A DNA stretch of 56,233 bases, taken from the NCBI GenBank assembly GCA_024655865.1, contig JANLFM010000007.1, positions 31,245 to 87,477 of the forward strand, given 5' to 3'. Both the position numbers and the translations under genes were made by a program. How positions within the stretch are numbered: the stretch's first letter is position 1; each line of letters starts with the position of its first letter. The notes below the pieces were generated by a model. The model was not told where the DNA came from. It worked only from the letters and a program-made list of their open reading frames with translations, and searched no databases. Positions 18,774-46,592 of the stretch are shown here, in pieces. The DNA comes from Caldisericota bacterium. GTDB lineage: Bacteria; Caldisericota; JANLFM01.

Positions 18774-18843
18774 AGGGAAGCATTCTTTTTAATGTGTTAA
18801 AATTTTCTTGAAAATTCCTTTTGGGAGGGAAAGGAGGACATTT

Positions 18844-19758
18844 ATGTCCAGACAGGTGAAAGCGTTTTTCTCTTTAGCCTTAGCGGTAGTCCTGCTTTTA
18901 GCTTCTCTTTCAGGGTGCGCCCAGCAAGCAACCATAAGTGCTCCCCCAGTACAGACGAAAATCATCGCCTTCCTCACGGATTATGGTACCAAGGACTTTT
19001 ATGTGGGAGCGGTCAAAGGCAGAATTCTCCAGATCAACCCGGAGGCAAAGATCATCGATATCACTCATGAAGTAACGCCATATGACATTCATGAGGGGGC
19101 GTTAACTCTGCTTCTGGCAGCCAGGGAGTTCTCAAACGATACCGTCTTTCTGGCTATCGTGGATCCGGGAGTGGGGACGGAAAGGAGGCCAATTGCAGCC
19201 CAGACCAACGACGGCAAAATTTTCGTGGCTCCTGATAATGGCCTTTTGACCTTCGTTCTCCAGGAGTTCGGAGTAAAAGAAGTGAGGCAGATCACAAATG
19301 AGTCATGGATGAGGCCTGGAGAACGCTCTTACTCCTTCCATGGCCGGGATATCTTTGGCCCGGTAGCCGCGCACCTCTCTTTAGGAAAGAGCTTCTCTGA
19401 AGTGGGCCCGGTGATCACGGATTACGTAAATTTGCCCATCAGTCCCTCTAAAGTGGAGAATGGAAAGCTCATCGGGCAGGTCCTGTGGATTGACCAGTAC
19501 GGAAATGTGCAGGTCAACATCACCGGAAAACAGGCCAAAGACGCCGGCTGGGCGATCAACGACAAAATTCGCATCGAGGTGGGAACAGCCACTCCTTTAG
19601 TGGCTCCCTTCGTGCACACCTACGGAGATGTCCCGGAGGGCGACCCTTTAATTTTTCAGGCCTCTACGGACTTCTTAGAAATCTCCATCAATATGGGAAA
19701 CATGGCCGAGTTCTTAGGGGCGGAGATCGGCGCCCTGGTTACGCTCACAAAGGAGTAG
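18844..19758 (+). CDS. SAM hydroxide adenosyltransferase (DUF62) family lipoprotein
   Basis: A 304-aa member of the SAM-dependent chlorinase/fluorinase/hydroxide adenosyltransferase family. Family motifs are all present: LTDYGTKDFYVGAVKG, IVDPGVGTERR (Asp and Arg of the hydrolytic triad), APDNGLL, SFHGRDIFGPVAAHL (triad His) and WIDQYGNVQVNI. It also has a clear lipoprotein signal (residues 1-25, lipobox LSGC), which is odd because the family is normally cytosolic and uses S-adenosylmethionine. I chose ATG 18844, with AAGGAGG 7 bases before it; the frame extends upstream to 18808 without a site. The substrate outside the cell is unknown. Confidence 0.88.
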   Translation: MSRQVKAFFSLALAVVLLLASLSGCAQQATISAPPVQTKIIAFLTDYGTKDFYVGAVKGRILQINPEAKIIDITHEVTPYDIHEGALTLLLAAREFSNDTVFLAIVDPGVGTERRPIAAQTNDGKIFVAPDNGLLTFVLQEFGVKEVRQITNESWMRPGERSYSFHGRDIFGPVAAHLSLGKSFSEVGPVITDYVNLPISPSKVENGKLIGQVLWIDQYGNVQVNITGKQAKDAGWAINDKIRIEVGTATPLVAPFVHTYGDVPEGDPLIFQASTDFLEISINMGNMAEFLGAEIGALVTLTKE

Positions 19759-20235: not shown

Positions 20236-20312
20236 TGGTGCGCCCAGCAGGACTCGAACCTGCAACCTGCGGATTAGGACTCCACTGCTCTATCCTATTG
20301 AGCCATGGGCGC
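20236..20312 (-). tRNA. tRNA-Arg, anticodon CCT
   Basis: Minus-strand cloverleaf with acceptor GCGCCCA/TGGGCGC, discriminator A and encoded CCA (20236-20238). Anticodon stem GTGGA/TCCGC with loop GTCCTAA gives anticodon CCT (codon AGG). Its 5' half is repeated in part at 34668-34708, so it may have served as an integration site. Confidence 0.93.
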
Positions 20313-20769: not shown

Positions 20770-20791
20770 AAAAACCAGCCTGTCCCTTTTT
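20770..20791 (+). repeat. 22-bp direct repeat, left copy
   Basis: Identical to 28029-28050 (core CCAGCCTGTCCC flanked by five A and five T). It lies 7 bases beyond the stop of the ABC permease gene. The two copies bracket the RiPP-like cassette. Confidence 0.8.
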
Positions 20792-20798
20792 CGTAGCT

Positions 20799-21599
20799 TC
20801 AATAAAACCCCAGCGTCCCATCTCTTCTCACTTTGCGGAAGGCCCAGCGGAAAGTGAGGACTCCTAAAGGAATAGTGAGCAAAGAGAAAGCCAGAAGGAT
20901 CATGATTTCTGATCCCACTGCTTCCCAACCTGCATGCTGCAGCAGAGAAAGCCTCAGAGCCCTAAGTCCATGGGTTTGAGGGAGAACCTGGGCCAGCCCC
21001 TGGAGCCAGGGAGGAAGGATTTCCACGGGATAATACACTCCTGAGAGAAAGCCGGAAAGCATCCCCATGAACCAAGAGATGGGATCCCCTTGCTTGTTCA
21101 CAAGAATTATCCCTGCGGAGATCATGCCGATCCCAGCCACGCTGATGATGGTTAAAAGAAAGGAGAGGAGGGCCAAGCCAATATTCGGAGAGAGCTTCAT
21201 GCCGAAAACCAGAAGGCCCAAGCCGAAAATTAGGGAGCTGTTGAGGAGGGTAAGCAGATAAGGCCAGAGGGCTGAGCAAAAAAGGAATTCCCAGGGTTTC
21301 AAGCCTGAGGCCAGGAGAATCTCCAAGGTACCCAAGCGTTGTTCTGAAGACACCGCTCCAGAAAAGGTGTTCTGGGAAACCGCGAAGAAATTCTGAAAGA
21401 TCACTCCAATCAAGAGAAAGGAGAGAAAATTCCCTCCATAAGGGGTAAGGAGAGGGATAAGGTTATTGCCCACCAATTTAGCGAGAAAGAAGTAGGAGGC
21501 TAACGAGATCACCATGCTGAACAACTGAAGGATCAAGGCGGTACGGTAAGTGGTGAAGGTTATGGCTTCTCTTAGAAGAAAAGCCAGGGGTTTTCTCAT
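20799..21599 (-). CDS. ABC-2 type transporter permease
   Basis: A 266-aa membrane protein with six predicted helices and the ABC-2 permease layout: a cytosolic N-terminus, a coupling segment (SSEQRLGTLEILLASGLKPW) and the late GVYYPVEILPPWLQ motif before the last helices, as in exporters of polysaccharides, lipids or peptides. Its start overlaps the stop of the ATPase gene by 4 bases. The pair is divergent from the radical SAM gene and is the best candidate exporter for the modified peptide, but a general multidrug or lipid role cannot be excluded. Confidence 0.85.
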   Translation of the reverse strand: MRKPLAFLLREAITFTTYRTALILQLFSMVISLASYFFLAKLVGNNLIPLLTPYGGNFLSFLLIGVIFQNFFAVSQNTFSGAVSSEQRLGTLEILLASGLKPWEFLFCSALWPYLLTLLNSSLIFGLGLLVFGMKLSPNIGLALLSFLLTIISVAGIGMISAGIILVNKQGDPISWFMGMLSGFLSGVYYPVEILPPWLQGLAQVLPQTHGLRALRLSLLQHAGWEAVGSEIMILLAFSLLTIPLGVLTFRWAFRKVRRDGTLGFY

Positions 21600-22561
21600 C
21601 GCTTCTCAGTGAGCTTTAAAAAGATGTCCTCTAAGCTGGGCTCCTCTAAGGCAAGATGGGTGATTTCCCAGTCGCAGGTCCCAGCAAGAGAAAGGAGCGA
21701 GGAAGGGGAAAATTTCTCTTTCCGGACAAAGAGGAGCACCCCCTGGGAATTGGTCTCCACTTTCTCCACACCCTCCACCTTCAAGAGGATGGCTCTATCC
21801 GATTCTTTTAAGGGAGGACTGGTTTGAAGACGCCAGCAGGCATTGGGAAAAGAAGCGCGGAGGTTGCTCAAGTCTCCTTCCGCTATTAGTTTTCCTTTAT
21901 CCAAGATCCCTATGCGATCGCAGATCCGCTCCGCCTCTAAAAGGTTATGAGTGACCAGGACAATGGTCTTTCCCCGGGCCTTCAAGTCCAGGATTAACTG
22001 CCTTATGACCAGTGCGGACTGGGGATCAATAAAGGAAGTGGGCTCATCCAGAAGGAGGATGGGAGGGTCCTTTAATAAAGACCTAGCTAAATCCAAGCGG
22101 CGCTTGTATCCAGAGGAATAAGTCATGAATTTTTTGTGAATAACATCTTCCAGCCCAAGGGAAGCAATAATTTGAGGAATTCTAGAAAAAGAAGAGGAAT
22201 GCCCGGAGACGGAGGCAAAGAACTTCAGATTCTGGAGGCCGGTCAAGCGCCAGTAAAAGGAGCGCTCTCCGCCTAAGGCGATCCCCACTGAGGCTCTTAC
22301 CTTTTGCTCTTCTTTAACTGTGTCATAGCCATTTACCTTAACAGAGCCAGAAGTGGGGAAAAGCAAAGAGGCTAAGAGTCGTAAGAGGGTGGTTTTCCCT
22401 GAGCCATTAGCCCCGCTAAGAGCAAAGATTAAACCTTCCTCTACGGCCAGGTTAATTCCCGAGAGGGCAGCAATCCTTCTCCGGGAAGAAGGAAAGGTTT
22501 TGGTCAATTCTTTAGTCTCAATGGCCAGTCTCAATTTCCTCACCCCAAAATTTTTTTCCAT
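21596..22561 (-). CDS. ABC transporter ATP-binding protein
   Basis: A 321-aa ATPase. Walker A is GANGSGKTT, the signature is SSGYKRRLDLARSL (SGY instead of SGGQ), Walker B is ILLLDEP, and the switch His is in VTHN. The C-terminal 90 residues form the extension seen in ABC-2 exporters. I place the start at ATG 22561 (MEKNFGV); a GTG eight codons further in is also possible. The longer frame to 22672 would overlap the radical SAM gene and its promoter and is unlikely. It works with the permease encoded next. Confidence 0.87.
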   Translation of the reverse strand: MEKNFGVRKLRLAIETKELTKTFPSSRRRIAALSGINLAVEEGLIFALSGANGSGKTTLLRLLASLLFPTSGSVKVNGYDTVKEEQKVRASVGIALGGERSFYWRLTGLQNLKFFASVSGHSSSFSRIPQIIASLGLEDVIHKKFMTYSSGYKRRLDLARSLLKDPPILLLDEPTSFIDPQSALVIRQLILDLKARGKTIVLVTHNLLEAERICDRIGILDKGKLIAEGDLSNLRASFPNACWRLQTSPPLKESDRAILLKVEGVEKVETNSQGVLLFVRKEKFSPSSLLSLAGTCDWEITHLALEEPSLEDIFLKLTEKR

Positions 22562-22565
22562 TCTC

Positions 22566-22596
22566 TTGACAATCGTAAAAAAAAAAATGCTAAATT
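22566..22596 (+). promoter_or_regulatory. Promoter of the radical SAM-peptide operon
   Basis: TTGACA (22566-22571), 19-base spacer containing an A tract, and an extended -10 TGC-TAAATT (22588-22596). GAGGTGG lies before the ATG at 22620. The promoter overlaps the probable start of the divergent ABC ATPase gene. Confidence 0.65.
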
Positions 22597-22619
22597 GTAA
22601 ATGGTGAGGTGGAAGAGAA

Positions 22620-23924
22620 ATGAAAGCCTCAAGGTATAATTTCTTCTTCAAAGAAGAGGGGCTTCTCTTCAATGCAGTAACTTGCGGTCTGGCACAGGTT
22701 TTACCAACACATGCACCCTCTATAGAAGCTGCCCTGAATGATCCAAATGATCAGAATTTATCCAGATTAGATACAGATATTAAGGAGAAGTTAATTGAAG
22801 GTGGGTTCCTGATTGAAGACGATGTGGATGAGGATACCTACTTAAAAGCAATCTTTAATCTTAGACGTTTCGCAACTAAGAATTTTGAGCTGACCATTCT
22901 ACCCACACTCAATTGTAATTTCAATTGCATATACTGCTATGAGCATAAAAGAAACGATAGAATGGATGAAAATGTTAGGAATAAGATTAAAGAACAAGTT
23001 GCCTCTTTGACAGAAATTAAAAACCTTGGTGTACTTTGGTACGGGGGTGAGCCTCTCCTTTTCCCAGAAATTATTTTTGATTTGTCAGATTATTTCATCA
23101 AATATTGCCAAGACAAAAATATTGGCTATCAAGCCTCAATAGTAACCAATGGTTATTTTTTAAATAAGGAAATGGCTCGTGATCTTAAAGAAATTAAAAT
23201 AAAATCTGCTCAAGTTACACTTGATGGTCCGGAAGTTGTCCATAATGTTAGAAGGCCATTAAAAAATGGAGGGGGCACTTTTGAAAGAATTCTCGCAAAT
23301 ATCTCCGAAAGCGCGGATGTTCTTAAAATTTATATAAGAGTGAACATTGACCGTGGAAATTATACATATTTGCCTCAGCTACTAAAGCAATTAAAATCTG
23401 CTCATCTCGAGAAAAAAGTCCAAATATCATTAGGTCTTGTGACCACTATATCAGAAGCCTGCCGAGATTACGAGGAAAATTGCCTAAGAATCAAAGAATT
23501 TAGTCCATTGGAACTAAATACGATGAATGATTTGATTAAAGAGGGTTTTGCTGGGTTTTATTTCCCAAAACCCATTGAGGTTTCCTGTATGGCTGTCTCA
23601 CCTCAAAATTTTGTTATTGGTCCTACGGGAGAACTGTACAAATGCTTAGAGACCGTTGGAGATGAAAAGGAAATAATAGGGTCTATTAATAGCATTTCAT
23701 TAAATAATTTAAATTTTATCTCTCCAAATTTGGCAAAATGGCTTTCATATGACCCTTTTACGGTCCCGGAATGTAAACATTGCGAGTTCTTACCAATATG
23801 TCTTGGTGGTTGTCCGCTCTATCACTTAAAACAATCTGAAAATTATAATATTGGTCTTCCTTGCCGAACTTGGCGCTTTTCTTTGAAGGACGTTCTTAAA
23901 AGTCAAGTTGTTTTCAATGTTTAA
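22620..23924 (+). CDS. Radical SAM/SPASM peptide maturase
   Basis: A 434-aa radical S-adenosylmethionine enzyme. The cluster motif is CNFNCIYC (C99, C103, C106), followed by the SAM-binding WYGGEPLLF. The N-terminal 90 residues look like the substrate-handling region of RiPP maturases. The C-terminal SPASM part has cysteines C323, C342, C385, C388, C394, C398 and C415, enough for two auxiliary Fe-S clusters. Such enzymes install thioether or C-C links in ribosomal peptides. A five-cysteine peptide gene follows 51 bases later. The gene is visibly richer in A+T than its neighbours, suggesting transfer. The exact subfamily (ranthipeptide, sactipeptide or Clo7bot-like) cannot be fixed by eye. Confidence 0.9.
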   Translation: MKASRYNFFFKEEGLLFNAVTCGLAQVLPTHAPSIEAALNDPNDQNLSRLDTDIKEKLIEGGFLIEDDVDEDTYLKAIFNLRRFATKNFELTILPTLNCNFNCIYCYEHKRNDRMDENVRNKIKEQVASLTEIKNLGVLWYGGEPLLFPEIIFDLSDYFIKYCQDKNIGYQASIVTNGYFLNKEMARDLKEIKIKSAQVTLDGPEVVHNVRRPLKNGGGTFERILANISESADVLKIYIRVNIDRGNYTYLPQLLKQLKSAHLEKKVQISLGLVTTISEACRDYEENCLRIKEFSPLELNTMNDLIKEGFAGFYFPKPIEVSCMAVSPQNFVIGPTGELYKCLETVGDEKEIIGSINSISLNNLNFISPNLAKWLSYDPFTVPECKHCEFLPICLGGCPLYHLKQSENYNIGLPCRTWRFSLKDVLKSQVVFNV

Positions 23925-23975
23925 TTCTTGAAATGTAGTAAGGGATTTAAAATAGAGGAAAGGAGGGCAAAAGAG

Positions 23976-24131
23976 ATGATTTTCCTAGTCAAACCGATAC
24001 GCCTTCTAGGGCACTTTAACGATGGGCCAAACTGGATATGCGCTGAATCTGGGTGCTTTAGACTCTGCGCACCAGTAGATTTGACTTGCCCATCAAGGTG
24101 CGATTTCCCCGGTTTTACCTGGGATCCTTAG
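23976..24131 (+). CDS. Cys-rich RiPP precursor peptide (candidate)
   Basis: A 51-aa peptide starting MIFLVKPIRLLG. Residues 1-19 form a Cys-free leader-like part. The core 20-51 holds five cysteines (22, 27, 31, 38, 42) within 21 residues, with acidic, aromatic and Pro residues, ending FPGFTWDP. ATG 23976 has AGGAGG (23961-23966) 9 bases upstream; the reading frame also extends upstream to 23928 without such a site. It directly follows the radical SAM/SPASM gene, the usual position of its substrate. The opening M-x-F-L-V-K-P resembles Clo7bot-type Cys-rich peptides as I remember them, which is untested. A 17-bp inverted repeat follows the stop. Confidence 0.75.
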   Translation: MIFLVKPIRLLGHFNDGPNWICAESGCFRLCAPVDLTCPSRCDFPGFTWDP

Positions 24132-24137
24132 CTAACG

Positions 24138-24206
24138 GGATTGACGGTGGGATCAACTAGAATTGTTTGCAGGCTAAATAAATAAAAAAGATCCCACCGT
24201 CAATCC
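24138..24206 (+). repeat. Perfect 17-bp inverted repeat between precursor and protease genes
   Basis: GGATTGACGGTGGGATC (24138-24154) and its exact reverse complement (24190-24206) surround a 35-base A/T-rich loop. There is no T tract on either strand, so it is not a classic terminator. It starts 6 bases after the precursor stop and ends before the ribosome binding site of the next gene. It probably protects the precursor mRNA 3' end or uncouples expression; an element end is the alternative. Confidence 0.7.
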
Positions 24207-24232
24207 ATCATATTGAAATGGAGGTTTAGCAG

Positions 24233-25588
24233 ATGGGAAGAAAACAAGGATTTTTAATTATTTTTTTAATCTTTTTGTTCATTCCTCTTAATTGTTATGC
24301 TCAAAACGGCGACGTTCTTTGTACCTCAGAACATTTCATCCTAAAAGCTTTTCCGGGAAGCCCTTCCGATGCCATTCCTTCATCTAAAGAAGCCCAAGAG
24401 TTCTGCAACTTCTACGAAAGGGTAATCGAAGAGCTCAGAGGAAAATTCGGCGGAGAGCTAAAAGGCAAGATTACCGTGGTCTTTGGAGGGAAGCAGGCAC
24501 AAGGTACTGGAGGAAGGACTGTAGCAGAGGTTTATTCATCAAAGTTACCCCTTTACAATTTTGGTACCCACGAGATTTTCCACGTAGCCCTGGAGGATCT
24601 CCTGGGGCCCCCACCGCCTCTCCTTCTCACCATCCGCCCCGCTCCGCCCTTTTGGAGCCCTTTGGGCTTAGAAGAGCTCGCCTGTACCGTATTTGAGTTG
24701 CATTTTTGGGAACGTTCTCCCCAGCTTCATCTCTACGCCAGGGTTTATCAAGAACTCAATAATTGGCCCTCCTTGGAGACAATACTTTCTCAGGAAGCCA
24801 AATTCACTTTTCAGGAGATGGAGTTTCCCTTAGAGTCCTTTATCACCTATCTCTTGGAGAACTATCCGCCCTCTTGTTTTAAAGCTCTCTGGCAGTATAA
24901 AGCAGATCTCGCCCTCAGTCCCACTCTCAACCTTCAGAAGGCAATTCAGCAAGCTTACGGAAAACCATTAGCAAAATTGGAGGAAGAGTGGCGGAGCTCG
25001 TTAGAAAAAATCTCCGTAGAGAGTGATTGGTATAAAACCGTCAGTTTCCACCGGGAATCGCAGCTTCTACTGGCTACAATCTCTTCCCAGATAACAGCGC
25101 AAGCGGAACCGATCAAAATCCAGCTCGATTCTCTTACCCAGCTCAATGAAGCTCTAAAGCCTATCGCCAAGATTTGGAACTCTGCCCCTTATGGCATCTT
25201 GGTACAACCGCTCAAGGATTTCTCCACCCTGGAAGAAAACCTGGTCCGCGCTAAGGAACTGAGCAAAAAGGCAGAAAAAGCCATTCAGCTACTTCAGGTG
25301 GTTCAGCGCAACCTGGGGAGCCAGAACTGGAATGAAGCCTATGGTAATTTCTATGAATTGCGAGGAAGCCTAATTGCTCTTGGGGAGCAGTCTCTTCTTC
25401 CCTGGGTGGATAAGAATCTGGAAGAGCTCAAAGGGAAGGTACCTCCAGAACTGGTGCGCTCTCTGGAAGAGAGGGGGTTTCCCTGGTGGGGATGGGTGCT
25501 GATCGGCTGCGGCATTGCTGGAGTTTTAGGGCTGGGAGGTTGGCTCTTTTTGAGAAGGAGGCGTATCCATAAGAAGGAAAAGGGGTAA
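24233..25588 (+). CDS. Membrane-anchored gluzincin-like metallopeptidase
   Basis: A 451-aa exported protein with a signal peptide (residues 1-24, cleavage after CYA). A zinc-peptidase core carries HEIFH (113-117) and, 30 residues on, a Trp-x-x-x-x-GLEE segment (E147/E148) resembling the EGLAE third-ligand motif of peptidase MA proteins. Residues about 175-280 form a helical domain shared with the paralogue at 28158. A coiled-coil region follows, then one C-terminal membrane helix (about 420-442) with a basic tail (RRRRIHKKEKG), leaving the catalytic part outside. AGGT-rich sequence precedes the ATG. Position after the precursor gene suggests leader or core processing at the cell surface; inference. 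Confidence 0.78.
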   Translation: MGRKQGFLIIFLIFLFIPLNCYAQNGDVLCTSEHFILKAFPGSPSDAIPSSKEAQEFCNFYERVIEELRGKFGGELKGKITVVFGGKQAQGTGGRTVAEVYSSKLPLYNFGTHEIFHVALEDLLGPPPPLLLTIRPAPPFWSPLGLEELACTVFELHFWERSPQLHLYARVYQELNNWPSLETILSQEAKFTFQEMEFPLESFITYLLENYPPSCFKALWQYKADLALSPTLNLQKAIQQAYGKPLAKLEEEWRSSLEKISVESDWYKTVSFHRESQLLLATISSQITAQAEPIKIQLDSLTQLNEALKPIAKIWNSAPYGILVQPLKDFSTLEENLVRAKELSKKAEKAIQLLQVVQRNLGSQNWNEAYGNFYELRGSLIALGEQSLLPWVDKNLEELKGKVPPELVRSLEERGFPWWGWVLIGCGIAGVLGLGGWLFLRRRRIHKKEKG

Positions 25589-25913
25589 GGTGGCTTTAAT
25601 ACTGAAGGAAGGAAATACTTTTTCCCTTGCTCCTTTCACGAAGGATTTCCTTTCCAAAATTCCTTTTTCATGAAAAAGGCGATAAGTTTAATTGTTAAGG
25701 GCGGGGTGAAAAGAGACGGAGACATGAAAAAACAGTTTTTTTCTCCAAAGGAAGGAGTATAATCAACTGTAGTTCTTCGATAGTTTACTGGAGAATGCTG
25801 TTTGTTATCGACAATGTTCTCGGCCAAGCTTAAGTGGGTGTTGTGGAATTCCAATGTACGAGCCACCCTGTCCCCCAGTGCTTTCTTCAGGACGCTCTAA
25901 ATGAGAATGCTGA
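25589..25913. other. Spacer with possible promoter
   Basis: A TATAAT at 25758-25763 could be a -10 box for the permease genes, but no good -35 box is in place. Only very short frames without ribosome binding sites are present (for example 25804-25890); I do not call them genes. Confidence 0.35.
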
Positions 25914-26942
25914 ATGGGGTACTTAAAATATATCCTTAAGCGCCTATTCTTTCTCATCCCGATCTTACTTCTCATCACTCTCACCATTTTCCTTTTAGAG
26001 AGCGCCATGGGAACACCCCCAGCAAAATATCTACTTGTAGGAAACCCCAATATAACTCCAGAAAACGTTTTCCAGGAATCTTTGAGATTGGGGCTAATTG
26101 ACCAACAAGGCAAACCCCGGCCCATGTTGATTCAATATTTATACTGGCTGAAAGCACTGTTTCAAGGTGAATTTGGATGGTCTTTGCGGCATCCCAATTA
26201 TTCGGCTCTTGAATTGTTTTTAACCTTTTTACCCAACTCCCTTCTTATGATCATTCCCTCCATCTTCCTCTCCCTTATTATTTCAATTCTCGCAGGGGTT
26301 AAATCGGCATACAGGCAGAATTCCCGCTTTGATAGAATTTCTATGATCCTGTCCTCTCTCGGGCTCTCCATTCCTCCCTACTGGTTGGCCCTCCTGGCCA
26401 TCATAATTTTCTGTGTAGTCCCCTACAGGCTCTTCAACTTTCCTTTATTTCCCTCGGGAAACATTATCTCTTTCGGGAAACCATTTGCTGGTAGCTTCTG
26501 GGACCGTATCTGGCATCTCGCATTACCTGTTTTGGTCCTGAGTGTAACTTTTGTGGCCACCTGGACCCGCTACATGCGCTCATCTTTTCTGGAAGTGATC
26601 CGCTCCGATTTTATCCGCACAGCCTTGGCCAAGGGGGTCTCAGAGAGGGGAATAATCTGGAAGCATGCCCTGCGCAATGCTCTCATCCCTCTTGTCACCA
26701 CTGTAGCCGTCTCTATCCCCTGGGTCTTCACCTGGGCAATCGTGGTGGAGACTGTTTTTTCCTACCCGGGTTTATGCCGGCTCTTTTATGAATCCTTTTT
26801 CTACCCTACCGACGTTTCCGTCCTCCAACTGGTGGTTTTCTTCTTTTTGGGGCTTACCGTGTTCTGCAATCTCCTTGCGGACACCTTCTATTGGTGGCTG
26901 GACCCCCGTATAAGAGAGCAAAGAGCTACAGGAGGAAAATAG
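25914..26942 (+). CDS. DppB-like ABC transporter permease
   Basis: A 342-aa permease of the peptide/nickel family. It opens YLKYILKRLFFLIPILLLIT, the typical DppB start. It has six membrane helices and the EAA loop region FIRTALAKGVSERGIIWKHALRNALIPL. It pairs with the DppC-like gene 1 base downstream. No binding protein or ATPase genes are adjacent, so these must come from elsewhere or the pair works with other subunits. Its place behind a peptide-maturation operon suggests transport of the peptide or its fragments. The start at 25914 has only a weak ribosome binding site. Confidence 0.9.
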   Translation: MGYLKYILKRLFFLIPILLLITLTIFLLESAMGTPPAKYLLVGNPNITPENVFQESLRLGLIDQQGKPRPMLIQYLYWLKALFQGEFGWSLRHPNYSALELFLTFLPNSLLMIIPSIFLSLIISILAGVKSAYRQNSRFDRISMILSSLGLSIPPYWLALLAIIIFCVVPYRLFNFPLFPSGNIISFGKPFAGSFWDRIWHLALPVLVLSVTFVATWTRYMRSSFLEVIRSDFIRTALAKGVSERGIIWKHALRNALIPLVTTVAVSIPWVFTWAIVVETVFSYPGLCRLFYESFFYPTDVSVLQLVVFFFLGLTVFCNLLADTFYWWLDPRIREQRATGGK

Positions 26943-26943
26943 C

Positions 26944-27873
26944 ATGCCTTCCCACCTTCTCTGGTCGATTTTCTGGAGGCGCTTTCGCAGGAGCAGACTA
27001 GCCCTTTTGGGCTTAGCCTGTTTACTGTTTTTAGCTTTAGCCTTTTTCCTCGGAGAACCGCTATACTGCTGGATCACGGGTTGCGATCCTTATACTATCA
27101 ATGTTTTGAATCGCTACGCCTTCCCTTCCTCCCAGCACTGGTTAGGAACAGATGATCAAGGGCGGGATTTATTGGCTCGCCTTCTTTTAGGAGGACGGCT
27201 CTCGGTAGAAGTAGCCTTTGCCTCTGCTTTCTTCTCCACCCTCTTTGGGACTTTCGTGGGACTTATCTCGGGCTTTTATGGAGGAGGGTGGGATTATCTT
27301 CTGATGCGCTTTGTGGATTATATGCTTTCCATTCCCTGGCTTATTATCTACATGGTGTTTGGATGGCTTCTCTTCCGCATTATTGGCTGGGGCTTATGGC
27401 CGTTGATTTTAGTTTTCTCCCTCTTCGGCTGGATGAACATCGCCCGTCTGGTAAGGGGGGAGGTGCTTTTGCTCAGGAACTCGGAATATGTAGAAGCAGC
27501 GCGATCGGTGGGGGCCACCACCTGGGGAATCATGTTCCACCACCTCCTCCTCAATTCTGTCCACATTATTTGGCCCTCTTTCGCCACCCTTATTTCCCAG
27601 AACCTCCTGGCGGAAGCTACTCTAAGCTGGATGGGGATGGGGATCCAGGAGCCTCAGCCCTCTTTGGGAAATATCATGATGAGGGAGGTCAACCCTCTCT
27701 TCGCACCTGGATATGGGCCCTTCCAATTTTTCTACCCCGGGATAACTCTGATCCTTTTAATTCTCTCCGTAAGCTGGTTGGGAGATGGCCTGCGTGACGC
27801 TTTTGATCCCAGGATGGTCTTCGCGACAACTTCCGCTAAAAACCGGGATAGTTTTACATTAAGTTCGTCTTAA
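26944..27873 (+). CDS. DppC-like ABC transporter permease
   Basis: A 309-aa partner of the preceding permease. After the first helix comes the family segment HWLGTDDQGRDLLARLLLGGRLS. The EAA loop is EYVEAARSVGATTWGIMFHHLLLNS, and the end is GDGLRDAFDPRM. AGGAGG lies before the ATG, and only one base separates it from dppB, so the two are translated together. The ATP-binding subunits are not in this window. Confidence 0.9.
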   Translation: MPSHLLWSIFWRRFRRSRLALLGLACLLFLALAFFLGEPLYCWITGCDPYTINVLNRYAFPSSQHWLGTDDQGRDLLARLLLGGRLSVEVAFASAFFSTLFGTFVGLISGFYGGGWDYLLMRFVDYMLSIPWLIIYMVFGWLLFRIIGWGLWPLILVFSLFGWMNIARLVRGEVLLLRNSEYVEAARSVGATTWGIMFHHLLLNSVHIIWPSFATLISQNLLAEATLSWMGMGIQEPQPSLGNIMMREVNPLFAPGYGPFQFFYPGITLILLILSVSWLGDGLRDAFDPRMVFATTSAKNRDSFTLSSS

Positions 27874-28028
27874 TCAAAACGAAAATTTCAAAAATACTAG
27901 TTGCCCAGGAGTATGGGAACCTTAAACTACAAAGAGGGTAACGAGTGCCTACGATGGAGGCAGGTCAAGAAATGTTTTCTAGAGCGTCGGCTATCACAAT
28001 AAGCCCAACTTCGATAGGTCAACTGCCT

Positions 28029-28050
28029 AAAAACCAGCCTGTCCCTTTTT
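28029..28050 (+). repeat. 22-bp direct repeat, right copy
   Basis: Exact copy of 20770-20791, about 155 bases after the DppC-like gene. It marks the right edge of the RiPP-like cassette. Confidence 0.8.
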
Positions 28051-28157: not shown

Positions 28158-29082
28158 ATGGCTGGATGTTGTTTTATTAGGAAGGGAGCTGGGGTTTTAG
28201 CGGGGATCCTGATTAACTTTCTGCTTGTTCTTTTCCTCGGATTAGGTTCCTTACCGGCTGTAGGTGCGGAATGGTCAGTATATCGCTCAGGGGATGAAGA
28301 ATCCTCCCAAAGGTTCCGTTTACAACTTCTACGCTGAAGGAGTTTTTCTCTTTAATTTCCCAGAGTCAGCTTTGTTTCAACAAATTATTGGCCCAGGTAG
28401 CGAAATGATAGGGTCATCGTATTTTACGGTCCTCAGGCAACGTCATCGGGGCCAGGATCCCCACACCGGTGCGCTCTTATACCTGAAATTGCAGCCATTG
28501 CAATTACCCTCCCTTGAAGAAATCCTCGTTAACCCGAATGATTTTCGGGCGAATGATCTTTTTTGCTCTTTCATTGCCTGGCTCGAGGAGAGATCTGGGC
28601 CTGATAAGTTGCTAAAGCTCCACTCGCTCCTCAAGGACGATCAGCCTTCCAGTTTAAACGAAGAACTTCTGGAAATTTATGGCCAAGATCTAAAGGCAAT
28701 GTCTTCGGCCTGGATGGATTTTTTGAAGGAAACCCTCCAAAACCACCCGCTCACTTTAGACGCAGAGCTTTACCGAGGCCTGAATCAGGGGTTAAAGGAA
28801 ATAACACAATCCACAGATTTAGCCAGGGAAAACCAGGATTTTCAGGAAAATTTCTTTAAGCTGGCTAATTTATCGAGTTATTATCTTGCCCGCTTAGATT
28901 TGCAAAAGGCGCAATTCTACTATCAGAAGCTCCAACAGCTCCTGGAGGAGAAAAAGGCCGAGGAGGAAAGGGAAGCGAGAAGTTGGGTTTATTCCTTGAT
29001 TGGCATCGGAGTTATTTTGATCTTAACGTTTATTGCTTTGGTGGGTATCAATTTTTACAGGCGCAGGAAAAGTACAAGGTAA
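28158..29082 (+). pseudogene. Frameshifted paralogue of the membrane-anchored peptidase, lacking HExxH
   Basis: The frame from ATG 28158 encodes a signal peptide (MAGCCFIRKGAGVLAG... to AVGAEWSV) and ends at a stop near 28336. The rest continues in another frame, open from 28264 to 29082 (272 aa). The long part matches the C-terminal half of the protein at 24233: SLEEILVNPNDF versus SLETILSQEAKF, then the same helical domain (ELLEIYGQDLKAMSSAW versus QAYGKPLAKLEEEW), a coiled coil, a membrane helix and a basic tail. The zinc motif is absent, so even if repaired it would be a non-catalytic relative. One lost or gained base between 28270 and 28330 explains the break. Confidence 0.65.
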
Positions 29083-29195
29083 CTTGATTCAATCCTCCAT
29101 CCTGAGCAATGAAATTGACCTGACCTGGGAAAAGACCACTGGATAGAGCAGAGGAGAACATAGATGGTATAAAGCACAATGGTTAAGGAGGTATT

Positions 29196-30849: not shown

Positions 30850-31440
30850 TTAATTTTTTCTTTTGCTTTTCTTTTTTCTTCTGAAGGGTTTTAAGGAGGG
30901 ATATTCATAAACCCGACTCCCCTCACCGGGCTTTTGAACAGTAGAAAAAGTGCTTAAAGCAGTCGGCCTCCACCAGGATTGCACCTCGGACCAGCAGAAT
31001 ATCAGCCATAAGAGGAGGGGAAATAGAATCTTTCCCAACTGGATGAGGAAGTAAAGCAGCGGTTCCGCAACCGCAATCTGGGCGTCCGTGGCGCCCACTT
31101 TAGTTAACCAGTACCCCAGGAAGCGGTCAGCTACCCTAAGAAAGTAGAGCACTACGAGGCCCAAAAGGATCTGCCATAGCCGCTTCTTCCAATGAGGTTT
31201 CCAACCTGGGGTTGCGGCCATCAAAGCCAGGAAGGGGACAATGTTCGTGAAGGCGCTTTCCCATAGATTTCCTAAAGCAGGAGAAAGGTTAAAGCTGATC
31301 TTAACCCCCAGAAACCAAGGGAAAAGCCAGGTCAGGGGCCAGAGAGTTGCAACCGTGTAGTAAGGTCCTAAAGGAATCCAGAGGAGGAAAAGGGCGGTCA
31401 AGGCCAGGACGAAACGCAGCAAAAAGGCCCAGACCCTCAT
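30850..31440 (-). CDS. Exosortase H-associated membrane protein (candidate)
   Basis: A 196-aa protein with about five membrane helices (for example FVLALTALFLLWIPLG, LWQILLGLVVLYFL, KILFPLLLWLIFCW) and a basic C-terminal tail (FRRKKKSKRKN). Its ATG overlaps the exosortase stop (ATGA), so it is translated with it. Small membrane partners of this kind accompany exosortase H. Its function is unknown; the fixed pairing suggests assembly or substrate handling. The assignment rests on size, topology and context. Confidence 0.65.
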   Translation of the reverse strand: MRVWAFLLRFVLALTALFLLWIPLGPYYTVATLWPLTWLFPWFLGVKISFNLSPALGNLWESAFTNIVPFLALMAATPGWKPHWKKRLWQILLGLVVLYFLRVADRFLGYWLTKVGATDAQIAVAEPLLYFLIQLGKILFPLLLWLIFCWSEVQSWWRPTALSTFSTVQKPGEGSRVYEYPSLKPFRRKKKSKRKN

Positions 31441-32045
31441 TTCTCTCTCTTTTCACGGGATGTCTTTGCCTGCTTTTGAGAAGAAGCAGGGCTGGTAAAT
31501 ACTTTAGGAACGGGCCGACGGATCCAGGAAAGCCAGATTAGAAAGAGGCTGACTACAAAGAGAATCAAGGTCAGTTGCCACAGATAGAGGTGCACCCACT
31601 CCATGAGCTGAGGATCGCGCATCCCGATTAAAGCCAAAATAAGAAGGCGAATCAAATTCAGGATGAAAAGAATGGCTATCCCTGTCCCGACCCCAACCAG
31701 CTTTTTCCACCAGATTCCGGGGTAAGCAAGAAGAATAGAACTGAAGATGATTATCTCGTAGAGGCCGGTGCACTCGGGAATGATCTCAATGGCCACCCCG
31801 GAAGAGGAGTAGGTAATTCCGGTTACCTGTACGGAAAAACCGAAAAGGCTGAGAAACCGAGCGGAGACAAGAGCTGTCCACTCCTGCAGGTGCTCTACCC
31901 CGCTCTTCCAGAAATAAAAAAGAGCGAAGAAGCCTACCGCTAAAACTACAAAGAGGAGAAGAAAACGTGTCAGATTTTTTCGTGAGGTTTGTTCAGTTTG
32001 ATTTCCCTTTATTGTCTTCGCCTTTTTCCTTTTATCCTGCCCCAC
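31437..32045 (-). CDS. Exosortase (XrtH-like)
   Basis: A membrane cysteine protease-transpeptidase of the exosortase/archaeosortase family (202 aa). It carries the invariant residues in family order: Cys in PECTGLYE (C92), Arg in NLIRL (R133) and His in WVHLYLW (H152), among about six membrane helices. The N-terminus is basic. The GTG at 32045 is preceded by AAAGGG at good distance; the frame opens further to 32066. It sits directly between a protein with an IPTLxxWG-like C-terminal signal and a partner membrane protein, so it likely processes that one substrate. Confidence 0.82.
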   Translation of the reverse strand: MGQDKRKKAKTIKGNQTEQTSRKNLTRFLLLFVVLAVGFFALFYFWKSGVEHLQEWTALVSARFLSLFGFSVQVTGITYSSSGVAIEIIPECTGLYEIIIFSSILLAYPGIWWKKLVGVGTGIAILFILNLIRLLILALIGMRDPQLMEWVHLYLWQLTLILFVVSLFLIWLSWIRRPVPKVFTSPASSQKQAKTSREKREK

Positions 32046-32083
32046 GGTTTCGCCCTTTCTACGCAAAAATCCGTACGGAGCAC

Positions 32084-42291: not shown

Positions 42292-42415
42292 ACGCTCTCT
42301 CTATGATTTAGTTCCTCTCAAACAAGGACAAGCAAGCAATTGAAGAAAGGGGGGTTGAAAGGTTTACTAAAGTAGACTTTGAAATCTTTAAAGTCAATTA
42401 AAAGGAGGTATGGTA

Positions 42416-44542
42416 ATGAAGAAACTGTTAGTTAGTGTTTTAATCACTGCCCTGGTGTTCAGCCTGGCAGCAATCCCCATGACTGCAGCTACTGCTTTAT
42501 CGGACATTTCTGGGCATTGGGCCGAGAAATCCATTAACGCTCTCCTGGATAAGAATTACGTCTCCGGATATCCGGATGGCACCTTCAAGCCCGACAATGC
42601 CGTTACGAGAGCGGAGTTCTTGAAGATTCTCACTTCTGTTTTGAACATCCCTCCAGCCACGGGTGGAACCTCTCAATTCTCCGATGTTACACCTGAGGAC
42701 TGGTTCTTCGGATACGTAGTAGCTGCTGTGGATAAAGGGATTGTTTCCGGGTATCCGGATGGCACCTTCAAGCCCAATAATCCCATCACCAGACAGGAAG
42801 CAGCAAAGATCGTAGTTAAGGCTCAAGGGATTGACGAGACACAGGCGGCCGTGGACTTCACCCTCTCTATGCTCACCGATGGGGATCAAGTTGCGGAGTG
42901 GGCCAGGCCCTTTGTAGCCGCTGCCGTGGAAAACGAGATCATGATGGGGGATCCTACGGGGGCTTTCAGGCCAATCGCCCAGATTACCAGAGCTGAGACC
43001 GCCACCATCGGCTTCCGCATGCTCCCGGTTGAGGTAGCAGGGACTTTCATCTTCGGAAGAGGCGCGGATTCCGTGAAATTAGATCCCGCTGATGTCACTG
43101 ATGGCGAGTCTGCCCGTGCCACAGTGCAGATTTACGACACCCTGGTAATGTTCAAGGGCGAAACTACCCTGATCAAGCCGGGGTTGGCCAAGAGCTGGGA
43201 GGTGTCTTCCGACAACCTCACCTGGACCTTCCATCTGAGAAGGGGTGTAAAGTTCCATGACGGCACGGATCTCAACGCGGATGCCGTTCTCTTCAACTTC
43301 GAACGCTGGTGGGACACAGAGAATCCCTATCATAAAGGGACATTTGAGTACTGGGAGTCCATGTTCGGTGGATTCAAGGGAGACGAGGGCTGTGTAATCG
43401 ACAAATTTGAGAAGGTGGATGACTACACCTTCCGTATCGTCATGAAGCAACCCTTCGCTCCACTCCTTTCCAACCTGGCCATGTTCTGCTTTGCCATTGC
43501 TTCTCCTGCGGCCATCAAGGATCAGGGGCCGGAGAATTACGCTACCTCCACCGAATTTCCCCCTGTGGGCACTGGCCCCTTTAAGTTTGTAGAGTGGGTC
43601 AAGGACGACAGGATTGTATTAGAGCGTTACCCGGAATACTGGGGCGAGAAGGCCAAAATAGAAAAGGTGATCTTAAAGGTTATCCCGGATAACTCCGCAC
43701 GATACCTCGCCTTGAAGTCCGGAGAAATCATGGGCATGGAGGGTGCTAACCCGGACGATGTGAAGGCAGCGAAGAATGACACCAACCTTCAGGTTATTTT
43801 GCGGCCTGCGATGAATGTGGGCACCGTAATCTTCAACGTCACTGCCAAGCCCTTTGACGATGTGCGCGTGCGCAAGGCCATCGCTATGGCCATCAACAAG
43901 AAAGCCATCGTGGAAGCCTTCTACGGGGAGACCGGCCTTGTGGCCAACCAGTTCCTGCCTCCTTCTATGTGGGGGTACAACGACAAGCTTGAGGATTATC
44001 CTTACGATCCCGAAGGGGCTAAGGCTCTCCTTGCTGAAGCTGGATATCCGGATGGCTTTGAGACCGATTTCTGGTACATGCCCAACCCTAGACCCTACTT
44101 CCCCGATCCTAAGGGAATTGCTGAGGCTATTGCCGCCGATCTGGGAAAAATCGGGGTGCGTTGCAACCTGAAGACCGAGGACTGGACCACTTACCTTGCT
44201 GACCGCAGGGAGGGCAAATTTAACCTCTGGATGCTGGGATGGACCGGTGACAACGGAGATCCGGATAACTTCCTGTACTTCCACTATGGTGTTCCTCGAC
44301 CAGGTGAGGGCAATTACAACAACCCCGAGCTGATCAAGATTTTGACCGATGCCCAGAAAGTTGTGAACCAGGCAGAGAGGGCAGAACTTTACAAGCAGGC
44401 CGCGGCCATTATCCATGAGGATTGCCCCAGGCTCTTTATTGGGCATAACCAGGTACCGCTCCTCTTCTCCAAGAAGGTCACGGGATATGTGGTAAATCCC
44501 ACCTCCACCGAAATCTACAACACCGTGGTAATACTGCCGTAA
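42416..44542 (+). CDS. S-layer-anchored peptide-binding protein (SLH domains plus SBP family 5)
   Basis: A 708-aa exported fusion. After a signal peptide (to AATA, about 24) come three S-layer homology modules (about 25-70, 85-130, 150-195; for example ISGHWAEKSINALL, YVSGYPDGTFKPDNAVTRAE). The rest (about 205-708) is a peptide/nickel-type binding protein with TWTFHLRRGVKFHDGTDLNA and FDDVRVRKAIAMAINKKAI. Binding proteins are usually lipid-anchored; here SLH modules would hold it to cell wall polymers. AGGAGG lies 7 bases before ATG 42416. It feeds the DppBC permeases downstream, across a 34-base palindrome. Confidence 0.92.
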   Translation: MKKLLVSVLITALVFSLAAIPMTAATALSDISGHWAEKSINALLDKNYVSGYPDGTFKPDNAVTRAEFLKILTSVLNIPPATGGTSQFSDVTPEDWFFGYVVAAVDKGIVSGYPDGTFKPNNPITRQEAAKIVVKAQGIDETQAAVDFTLSMLTDGDQVAEWARPFVAAAVENEIMMGDPTGAFRPIAQITRAETATIGFRMLPVEVAGTFIFGRGADSVKLDPADVTDGESARATVQIYDTLVMFKGETTLIKPGLAKSWEVSSDNLTWTFHLRRGVKFHDGTDLNADAVLFNFERWWDTENPYHKGTFEYWESMFGGFKGDEGCVIDKFEKVDDYTFRIVMKQPFAPLLSNLAMFCFAIASPAAIKDQGPENYATSTEFPPVGTGPFKFVEWVKDDRIVLERYPEYWGEKAKIEKVILKVIPDNSARYLALKSGEIMGMEGANPDDVKAAKNDTNLQVILRPAMNVGTVIFNVTAKPFDDVRVRKAIAMAINKKAIVEAFYGETGLVANQFLPPSMWGYNDKLEDYPYDPEGAKALLAEAGYPDGFETDFWYMPNPRPYFPDPKGIAEAIAADLGKIGVRCNLKTEDWTTYLADRREGKFNLWMLGWTGDNGDPDNFLYFHYGVPRPGEGNYNNPELIKILTDAQKVVNQAERAELYKQAAAIIHEDCPRLFIGHNQVPLLFSKKVTGYVVNPTSTEIYNTVVILP

Positions 44543-44675: not shown

Positions 44676-45680
44676 ATGCTAAGCTACATTATTCGCAGAA
44701 TACTATCGCTCATTCCCGTGCTCATCGGGGTCTCAATTATTGTCTTCTTATTTATTCATATGATCCCCGGAGACCCGGTTCTGGCAATCCTGGGGGAAAG
44801 GGCCACCGTGGAGAACGTGGAAAGAGCAAGGCACGAGTTGGGTTTAGACCGTCCTCTGTGGGAGCAGTATTTCCTTTATGTGAACAAGATCTTCCACGGG
44901 GATCTGGGGCGCTCCATCAGATCCAATACCCCTGTGTCTCAGGAAATGGCTACTAAATTTCCCGCAACAGCCGAGTTATCAATTTTTGCCATGATCATTG
45001 CCTTAATTGTTGGTCTCCCCGCAGGGATAATTTCAGCGGCCAAACGCAATTCGATATTCGACACTACCGTTATGATCGGAGCCCTAATTGGTGTCTCCAT
45101 GCCTATTTTCTGGTTAGGTTTAATGCTCGCTTTCCTTTTTTCAATTTTCTTAAAGTGGCTCCCTTTTTCCGGAAGATTAGATTCCACGATTATCCTACCG
45201 ATACAAACAAACTTCTTGCTTTTAGATAGCTTGCTTGCTGGCAATTGGGAGGCCTTTAAGAATAGCCTGGCCCATCTCATCCTTCCTTCGTTGGCTCTTT
45301 CTACCATCCCCATGGCGATTATCGCCAGGATGACCAGGAGTTGCCTTTTGGAAGAGCTAGGCCAGGATTATATCCGCACAGCACGGGCTAAGGGACTCAA
45401 AGAGAGCAGTGTTCTCTTGAGGCACGCTCTTAAAAACGCCCTTTTGCCCGTGGTCACGATTATCGGACTCGAGACAGGAGCTTTACTGTCAGGCGCTATC
45501 CTTACCGAGACCATCTTCTCCTGGCCAGGAATTGGCAGGTGGATTTACATGGCCATTCAATCCCGGGATTACCCTATAGTTCAAGGAGCCACGCTCCTCA
45601 TAGCTCTGATTTATGTACTTGTGAACTTGCTCGTGGACATTTCTTACGCCTTTTTAGATCCGAGAATCAGGGTCCAATAG
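44676..45680 (+). CDS. dppB: DppB-like ABC transporter permease
   Basis: A 334-aa permease of the peptide family. It opens MLSYIIRRILSLIPVLIGVS, has six helices, and the EAA loop DYIRTARAKGLKESSVLLRHALKNALLPV. It forms a channel with the DppC-like protein encoded 9 bases downstream and receives substrate from the SLH-anchored binding protein. ATPase genes are missing from the window. It is a clear paralogue of the permease at 25914. Confidence 0.93.
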   Translation: MLSYIIRRILSLIPVLIGVSIIVFLFIHMIPGDPVLAILGERATVENVERARHELGLDRPLWEQYFLYVNKIFHGDLGRSIRSNTPVSQEMATKFPATAELSIFAMIIALIVGLPAGIISAAKRNSIFDTTVMIGALIGVSMPIFWLGLMLAFLFSIFLKWLPFSGRLDSTIILPIQTNFLLLDSLLAGNWEAFKNSLAHLILPSLALSTIPMAIIARMTRSCLLEELGQDYIRTARAKGLKESSVLLRHALKNALLPVVTIIGLETGALLSGAILTETIFSWPGIGRWIYMAIQSRDYPIVQGATLLIALIYVLVNLLVDISYAFLDPRIRVQ

Positions 45681-45689
45681 GAGAAAAGC

Positions 45690-46592
45690 ATGGAAGAACT
45701 GGTAACGGAGATCAAAAAGAAAGAAGCGCGTTATTCCTTTTTCCGCCAGGCAGCGAAACGATTGTGGGATACTCGCTCTGCCCGCATTGGCCTTTTTATC
45801 GTGGCCTTTTTCGTGATTCTGGCTATCGTGGTTCCCCTGGCATTCCCTTACGATCCCAAGGTGGACTCCAATCTCGCCATGAAGCTAAAACCTCCTTCCT
45901 GGGAACACCTTTTTGGTACAGATCAGCTTGGCAGGGATGTCCTGGTAAGGGTTGTGCATGGCGCCCCTATCTCTTTAAGAGTTGGGCTAACTGCCGTGGC
46001 CTTCGGGCTCTTGGTGGGAACATTCTTGGGAATGATTGCCGGTTTCTTCCGAGGCGCTATAGACTCCATTATTATGCGGCTCATGGATATCATGCTCGCC
46101 TTTCCCGCAACGCTTCTGGCGATTGCCATCGTGGCTATGCGCGGGCCGGGATTGAACAACACCATGTTCGCCATCGGTATCGTTTCCGTTCCAGGATACG
46201 CCCGTATTGCCAGGTCAGCCGTCCTCGCTCTTCAAGAGAGGGAGTTCGTCTCCGCCGCTCGGGCCATCGGAGCCAAACCTATGAGAGTGCTTTTCCGCCA
46301 CATCCTCCCCAATGGCATTTCTCCCCTTGTAGTTCAGGCCACCTTGAACCTGGCCACTGCGGTCCTGGAAGCGGCTGCTCTGGGTTTCCTGGGACTGGGT
46401 GCGCAACCCCCTCAGCCTGAATGGGGAGCCATGCTCTCTGACTCCTATAAATTTCTCACTATTGGCGCCTGGTGGCCAGTGCTTTTCCCGGGGCTGGCAA
46501 TCATGCTCACCGTTTTGGGCTTCAACCTTTTAGGGGACGGCCTGCGTGACGCTCTTGACCCCAGAATGATCGTGAAATCAAGGTACTTTTAA
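45690..46592 (+). CDS. dppC: DppC-like ABC transporter permease
   Basis: A 300-aa permease with six helices. Family segments are HLFGTDQLGRDVLVRVVHGA, the EAA loop EFVSAARAIGAKPMRVLFRH and the end GDGLRDALDPRM. The start has an AGGAG a few bases upstream. It completes the permease pair of the SLH-binding-protein transporter. Confidence 0.93.
   Translation: MEELVTEIKKKEARYSFFRQAAKRLWDTRSARIGLFIVAFFVILAIVVPLAFPYDPKVDSNLAMKLKPPSWEHLFGTDQLGRDVLVRVVHGAPISLRVGLTAVAFGLLVGTFLGMIAGFFRGAIDSIIMRLMDIMLAFPATLLAIAIVAMRGPGLNNTMFAIGIVSVPGYARIARSAVLALQEREFVSAARAIGAKPMRVLFRHILPNGISPLVVQATLNLATAVLEAAALGFLGLGAQPPQPEWGAMLSDSYKFLTIGAWWPVLFPGLAIMLTVLGFNLLGDGLRDALDPRMIVKSRYF

Follow-up and report, generated by a model that had tools for sequence, protein, structure and literature searches.

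A predicted minimal Clo7bot/TIGR04463-type RiPP locus in a Caldisericota bacterium

The 56,233-nucleotide stretch of Caldisericota DNA analysed here (the window) carries what we consider, with good confidence, to be a minimal locus for a RiPP of the Clo7bot/TIGR04463 type, in which a laterally acquired SPASM radical-SAM maturase modifies a 51-aa Cys-rich peptide encoded beside it, a divergent ABC-2 pair probably exports the product, and the HExxH protein and DppBC permeases that follow are separate genes. An earlier note had drawn all of these into one cassette, and the features it claimed are all present at their positions, as judged by reading frames and by Pfam and NCBIfam profiles, which back the radical-SAM, ABC-2, ABC_tran and BPD_transp assignments. 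The locus is laid out as follows.

20770–20791 (+): 22-nt repeat AAAAACCAGCCTGTCCCTTTTT, copy 1
20799–21599 (-): ABC-2 permease, probable exporter subunit (Pfam/NCBIfam)
21596–22564 (-): divergent ABC ATPase of the DrrA type, probable exporter subunit (Pfam/NCBIfam); start inferred, an earlier ORF start being possible
22620–23924 (+): SPASM radical-SAM RiPP maturase, Clo7bot/TIGR04463-like, 434 aa (NCBIfam, PF04055, invariant cysteines)
23976–24131 (+): putative 51-aa five-Cys precursor peptide MIFLVKPIRLLGHFNDGPNWICAESGCFRLCAPVDLTCPSRCDFPGFTWDP (leader signature M-x-[FWY]-[ILVM]-x-x-P)
24138–24206 (+): 17-bp perfect inverted repeat (hairpin) between the precursor and HExxH genes
24233–25588 (+): membrane-anchored HExxH (gluzincin-like) protein from a family restricted to this lineage, a probable bystander
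25914–26942 (+): OppB/DppB-type permease belonging to an orphan pair, a probable bystander (Pfam/NCBIfam)
26944–27873 (+): OppC/DppC-type permease of the same orphan pair, probably a bystander (Pfam/NCBIfam)
28029–28050 (+): 22-nt repeat AAAAACCAGCCTGTCCCTTTTT, copy 2

The maturase scores best with the NCBIfam profiles TIGR04463 (313.7 bits) and Clo7bot TIGR04334 (309.4 bits), followed by CefB (257.5), FlmE/OhkG (204.6) and geopeptide (186.1). All of these top profiles describe RiPP maturases, although the enzyme lies under every curated cut-off (525 for TIGR04463 and 600 for TIGR04334). The anaerobic sulfatase maturase profile TIGR03942 reaches 84.8 bits against a cut-off of 349, far under the RiPP profiles, placing the enzyme with RiPP maturases and not with sulfatase maturases. 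Its radical-SAM motif CxxxCxxC reads CNFNCIYC, within a PF04055 match, and the SPASM cysteines (C323...GELYKC342, CKHCEFLPICLGGC and C415) follow the pattern C-x(9-15)-G-x4-C / C-x2-C-x5-C-x3-C / C; in an alignment of relatives CxxxCxxC and the seven SPASM cysteines are invariant across 19 sequences. The closest solved structure by profile is that of CteB, the SCIFF maturase (5wgg, E 1.3e-41), followed by 8vpo, aligned over nearly the full length. A structure prediction made with five distant rows (pLDDT 43) was too poor for a fold search, and the literature covered by the search offered nothing usable on the Clo7bot/TIGR04463 maturase family.

The enzyme is the sole one of its kind in its own genome, and no such maturase was found in those genomes of its genus and family that were searched. 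A scan of genome contigs returned only other radical-SAM families at 20–29% identity. Relatives (31–43% identity) come from further families of the phylum as well as from other phyla, and also from named plasmids, where they are annotated as Clo7bot or TIGR04463 maturases. In the tree the enzyme lies outside the supported TIGR04463 clade and inside no annotated clade, and its branch has no firm placement otherwise. Two distantly related genomes (loci L068 and L121) have the same two-maturase arrangement, accompanied by ABC-2 exporters and a number of signature peptides; the clades that pair their enzymes (G034a/G102b and G034b/G102c) are both strongly supported, and transfer of a whole cluster is likely.

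No gene of the window has a more deviant codon usage than the maturase (distance 0.272; median 0.147), whose GC content is 0.36 against 0.50, while the ABC-2, HExxH and DppBC genes are of native composition, leaving the maturase alone as foreign. The simplest history is that the maturase arrived beside resident peptide-handling genes. Elsewhere, a maturase relative at L125 (8059–9420) has a GC content of 0.29 in surroundings of 0.57 and no signature peptide beside it, and is either another recent arrival or an enzyme with a different substrate.

The outer ends of the proposed cassette, 20770 and 28050, coincide with the two perfect copies of AAAAACCAGCCTGTCCCTTTTT, and a mobile cassette bounded by 22-nt direct repeats was considered. 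Three degenerate copies lie on three other contigs (L129, L130 and L131), and the element is therefore a dispersed intergenic repeat and not a cassette border; its copies mostly sit just past gene 3' ends, and it resembles REP-type GGGACAGG repeats. An island at the tRNA-Arg gene (20236–20312) was rejected as well: a 16-nt inverted match resembling tRNA lies at 29141, but its strand is wrong for an attachment site, no tRNA gene was found at that position, and no integrase was recognised among the listed ORFs. On the flank, the gene at 18808–19758 has no gene order in common with sister genera, so that no empty site could be read there.

The precursor ATG follows the maturase stop codon at a distance of 51 nt, behind a GGAGGG-type ribosome site, and the encoded peptide begins MIFLVKP, fitting the signature M-x-[FWY]-[ILVM]-x-x-P, with core cysteines at C22, C27, C31, C38 and C42. 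No NCBIfam or Pfam profile matches it, including TIGR04333 (cut-off 31 bits), which does detect the annotated Paraclostridium peptides; a search against RiPP profiles, as the earlier note had proposed, puts RiPP families on top for the maturase, though under their cut-offs, and gives no match for the peptide. The signature, defined after the data had been seen, was counted on ORFs of 25–130 aa with at least two cysteines. It is present on 31 of the 266 such ORFs that lie no more than 1.2 kb from a related maturase, against 3 of 1079 farther off (one of them evidently another precursor) and 1 of 1608 in 34 control loci picked without regard to a maturase, giving a background of about 0.06–0.3%. 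Because the near count takes in the window, four genomes from a single genus and multiple copies at a locus, a Fisher p-value overstates independence; the signature still recurs in many unrelated genomes. It also begins annotated Clo7bot peptides (MKFIKKP..., MKYIVKP...) and CefA (MQYLVQP...), and the two closest maturases (43% identical in L112 and 40% in L113) have a signature peptide directly downstream, as in the window. From the counts, the likeness to annotated peptides and this common downstream position, we take the 51-aa ORF to be a real precursor.

Signature-bearing Cys-rich peptides lie at most related maturases, so the small gene is conserved with its leader in homologous neighbourhoods. 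The earlier note had named two outcomes that would speak against it, a maturase of the sulfatase type and a small gene that no related neighbourhood keeps; neither was found, since the maturase groups with RiPP enzymes and the neighbourhoods retain the Cys-rich gene. One genus of the phylum has tandem precursors of 104–119 aa beside a single maturase (L065 9366–10831, L064 9288–9945, L067 8819–9477); they are of two types (MKWIVNPMDEF... and MNWIIKPGSP...) with about 15 Cys each, and the two checked had no NCBIfam match above cut-off.

The radical-SAM enzyme very probably cross-links the adjoining Cys-rich peptide. We infer that it would recognise the N-terminal MIFLVKP leader and install cross-links, most likely cysteine thioethers, in the Cys-rich core. 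The precursor sequence points to no particular type of link, fitting neither PapB repeats nor SCIFF spacing. As the number of cysteines is odd, one thiol would stay free if the links pair cysteines, while thioethers to other residues need no pairing. The product, whatever activity it may have, would probably leave through the divergent ABC-2 pair.

It is barely credible, by comparison, that the 51-aa ORF is a chance frame and that the maturase acts on some other protein or is of the sulfatase-maturase type. That no family profile matches the peptide would fit such a reading, but a leader signature of so low a background, a strong ribosome site and a place downstream of the maturase gene that the closest relatives share argue for a gene, and the sulfatase-maturase profile reaches a mere 85 bits. 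Whether the transporter belongs to the module is a closer question. At L068, a locus from the same phylum, maturase, precursor, ATPase and permease follow one another in that order, the permease being 41% identical to that of the window, and ATPase/permease pairs adjoin related maturases at L068, L069, L070, L117, L118, L120 and L121, with homologous ATPases at the first six. By genome, pairs of ABC-2 type stand beside the maturase in G034, G102, G071, G218, G008 and G039, with permeases confirmed by Pfam in G034 and G039 only; by locus, Pfam confirms those at L068 and L070, while the permeases of L117, L118, L120 and L069, without a Pfam match, are judged by length, position and sequence only. 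The maturase and peptide could instead form a self-contained module, the ABC-2 pair being a further bystander and the product either exported by another transporter or kept inside. We regard this as possible though clearly the less likely reading: 32 of the 386 genomes have a close relative of the permease, in most cases away from any related maturase, and 20 further permease neighbourhoods held no adjacent maturase of this family, with weak radical-SAM matches a few kb off in three; several maturase loci, including the closest relative L112, have no adjoining transporter; and the ABC-2 genes are of native composition. Export by the divergent pair, as first proposed, is thus plausible but not proven, the related arrangements speaking for it and the usual occurrence of the permease family without a maturase against it.

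The larger proposal was that the whole of 20.8–28 kb is one autocrine circuit, in which the maturase would modify the peptide and the ABC-2 pair export it, with the HExxH protein then trimming it and DppBC, using ATPases borrowed from the C4 operon, re-importing or sensing it. In its favour, the genes for the maturase, peptide, HExxH protein and DppBC share a strand within 5.3 kb, and in the one genome from the same genus the maturase, the HExxH protein and the ABC-2 permease are all without a close homologue. The single direction claimed for these genes holds from maturase to DppC, but the strong hairpin at 24138–24206 (z = -4.6, no T tract) splits the peptide gene from the protease gene; as the end of a repeat element it was rejected, there being no second copy anywhere in the genome. 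The HExxH protein has an apparent N-terminal signal and a C-terminal TM segment and matches no Pfam family above threshold. H113, E114, H117 and the downstream E148 are invariant in the four known members of its family; PF13485 matches weakly (best 0.066) in two other members only, and a single-sequence fold (pLDDT 50) is too poor to judge. The family is almost wholly confined to this taxonomic family, where two genomes, of sister genera, carry it without the maturase. The DppBC pair has a 50% identical paralogue in the same genome (G000:C4, L073), within a complete operon conserved in sister genomes, but itself adjoins no binding protein or ATPases and so falls short of a full dipeptide/oligopeptide importer. 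When co-occurrence was checked, none of the 21 related maturase loci had an HExxH or DppBC homologue (E 1e-3). Together with a composition that marks the maturase as the newcomer, these findings make the circuit very unlikely, and for trimming by the HExxH protein, as for sensing or re-import through DppBC, adjacency is all the evidence there is. The supposedly unusual union of protease and permeases in a RiPP circuit accordingly finds no support, and both are most likely unrelated bystanders.

Other genes of the window also concern surface proteins and peptide transport. At 28158–29082 (+) a signal-peptide ORF (28158–28337) and a membrane-anchored ORF (28264–29082) with a weak Peptidase_MA_2 match lie in different frames, neither with HExxH, and the region appears to be what is left of a decayed surface-peptidase relative. 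A protein at 42410–44542 (+) apparently joins S-layer-homology repeats to an oligopeptide-binding protein and has its own permease pair next to it (44676–46592); similar proteins precede complete Opp operons in sister genomes (L078 and L079). An exosortase (EpsH family, PF09721) at 31437–32066 (-) adjoins large, repeat-rich surface-type proteins.

The favoured reading, a minimal locus in which a recently landed maturase would act on the 51-aa peptide beside native, lineage-specific peptide-handling genes, adds a maturase–precursor pair predicted from sequence to a known kind of modified-peptide system. It also shows one short N-terminal signature to be common to the Cys-rich precursors of several separately named maturase families (Clo7bot, CefA and TIGR04463-like); the signature can serve to detect unannotated precursors like the present one, missed by every profile searched here. 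A circuit of protease and importer would matter more: a Clo7bot-like cross-linked peptide that, after export by the ABC-2 pair, a surface metallopeptidase cuts and a dedicated permease pair takes back in as a signal would make a RiPP the basis of an autocrine system and add a new protease family. We consider such a system highly improbable, the evidence being against it.

Clo7bot, with its TIGR04334 maturase and TIGR04333 Cys-rich peptides, offers a parallel, for example in the Paraclostridium bifermentans plasmid NZ_CP094934.1. The window maturase resembles the Clo7bot enzymes over its full length (309 bits) and is 33% identical to that of the plasmid; both systems have a short Cys-rich precursor adjoining the maturase and starting M-x-[FY]-[IL]-x-K-P (MIFLVKP and five Cys in the window), and both have ABC transporter genes in the neighbourhood, the divergent orientation of the ABC-2 pair setting the window apart. 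Unlike Clo7bot, the window has a single precursor, against about nine in Paraclostridium, and one that TIGR04333 does not match, while its maturase falls under the TIGR04334 cut-off and forms no clade with the Paraclostridium enzyme. TIGR04463 (rSAM_vs_C_rich), the best-scoring profile, implies a Cys-rich partner peptide by its name, yet here too the enzyme is under the cut-off and outside the supported clade, that of the Methylomagnum and Thermus enzymes. In the CefA/CefB system, CefA of Methylomagnum has a start like the window leader but is a long protein and not a 51-aa peptide. CteB, for all that it is the closest solved structure by sequence (PDB 5wgg), is distant (TIGR03974, 70 bits), as are the PapB-type ranthipeptide maturases (PapB, 105 bits), and the window precursor has neither what we take to be the SCIFF pattern and spacing of cysteines nor what we take to be the Cys-x3-Asp repeats of PapB substrates. 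Both enzymes nevertheless carry out SPASM thioether chemistry, the model for the reaction proposed here.
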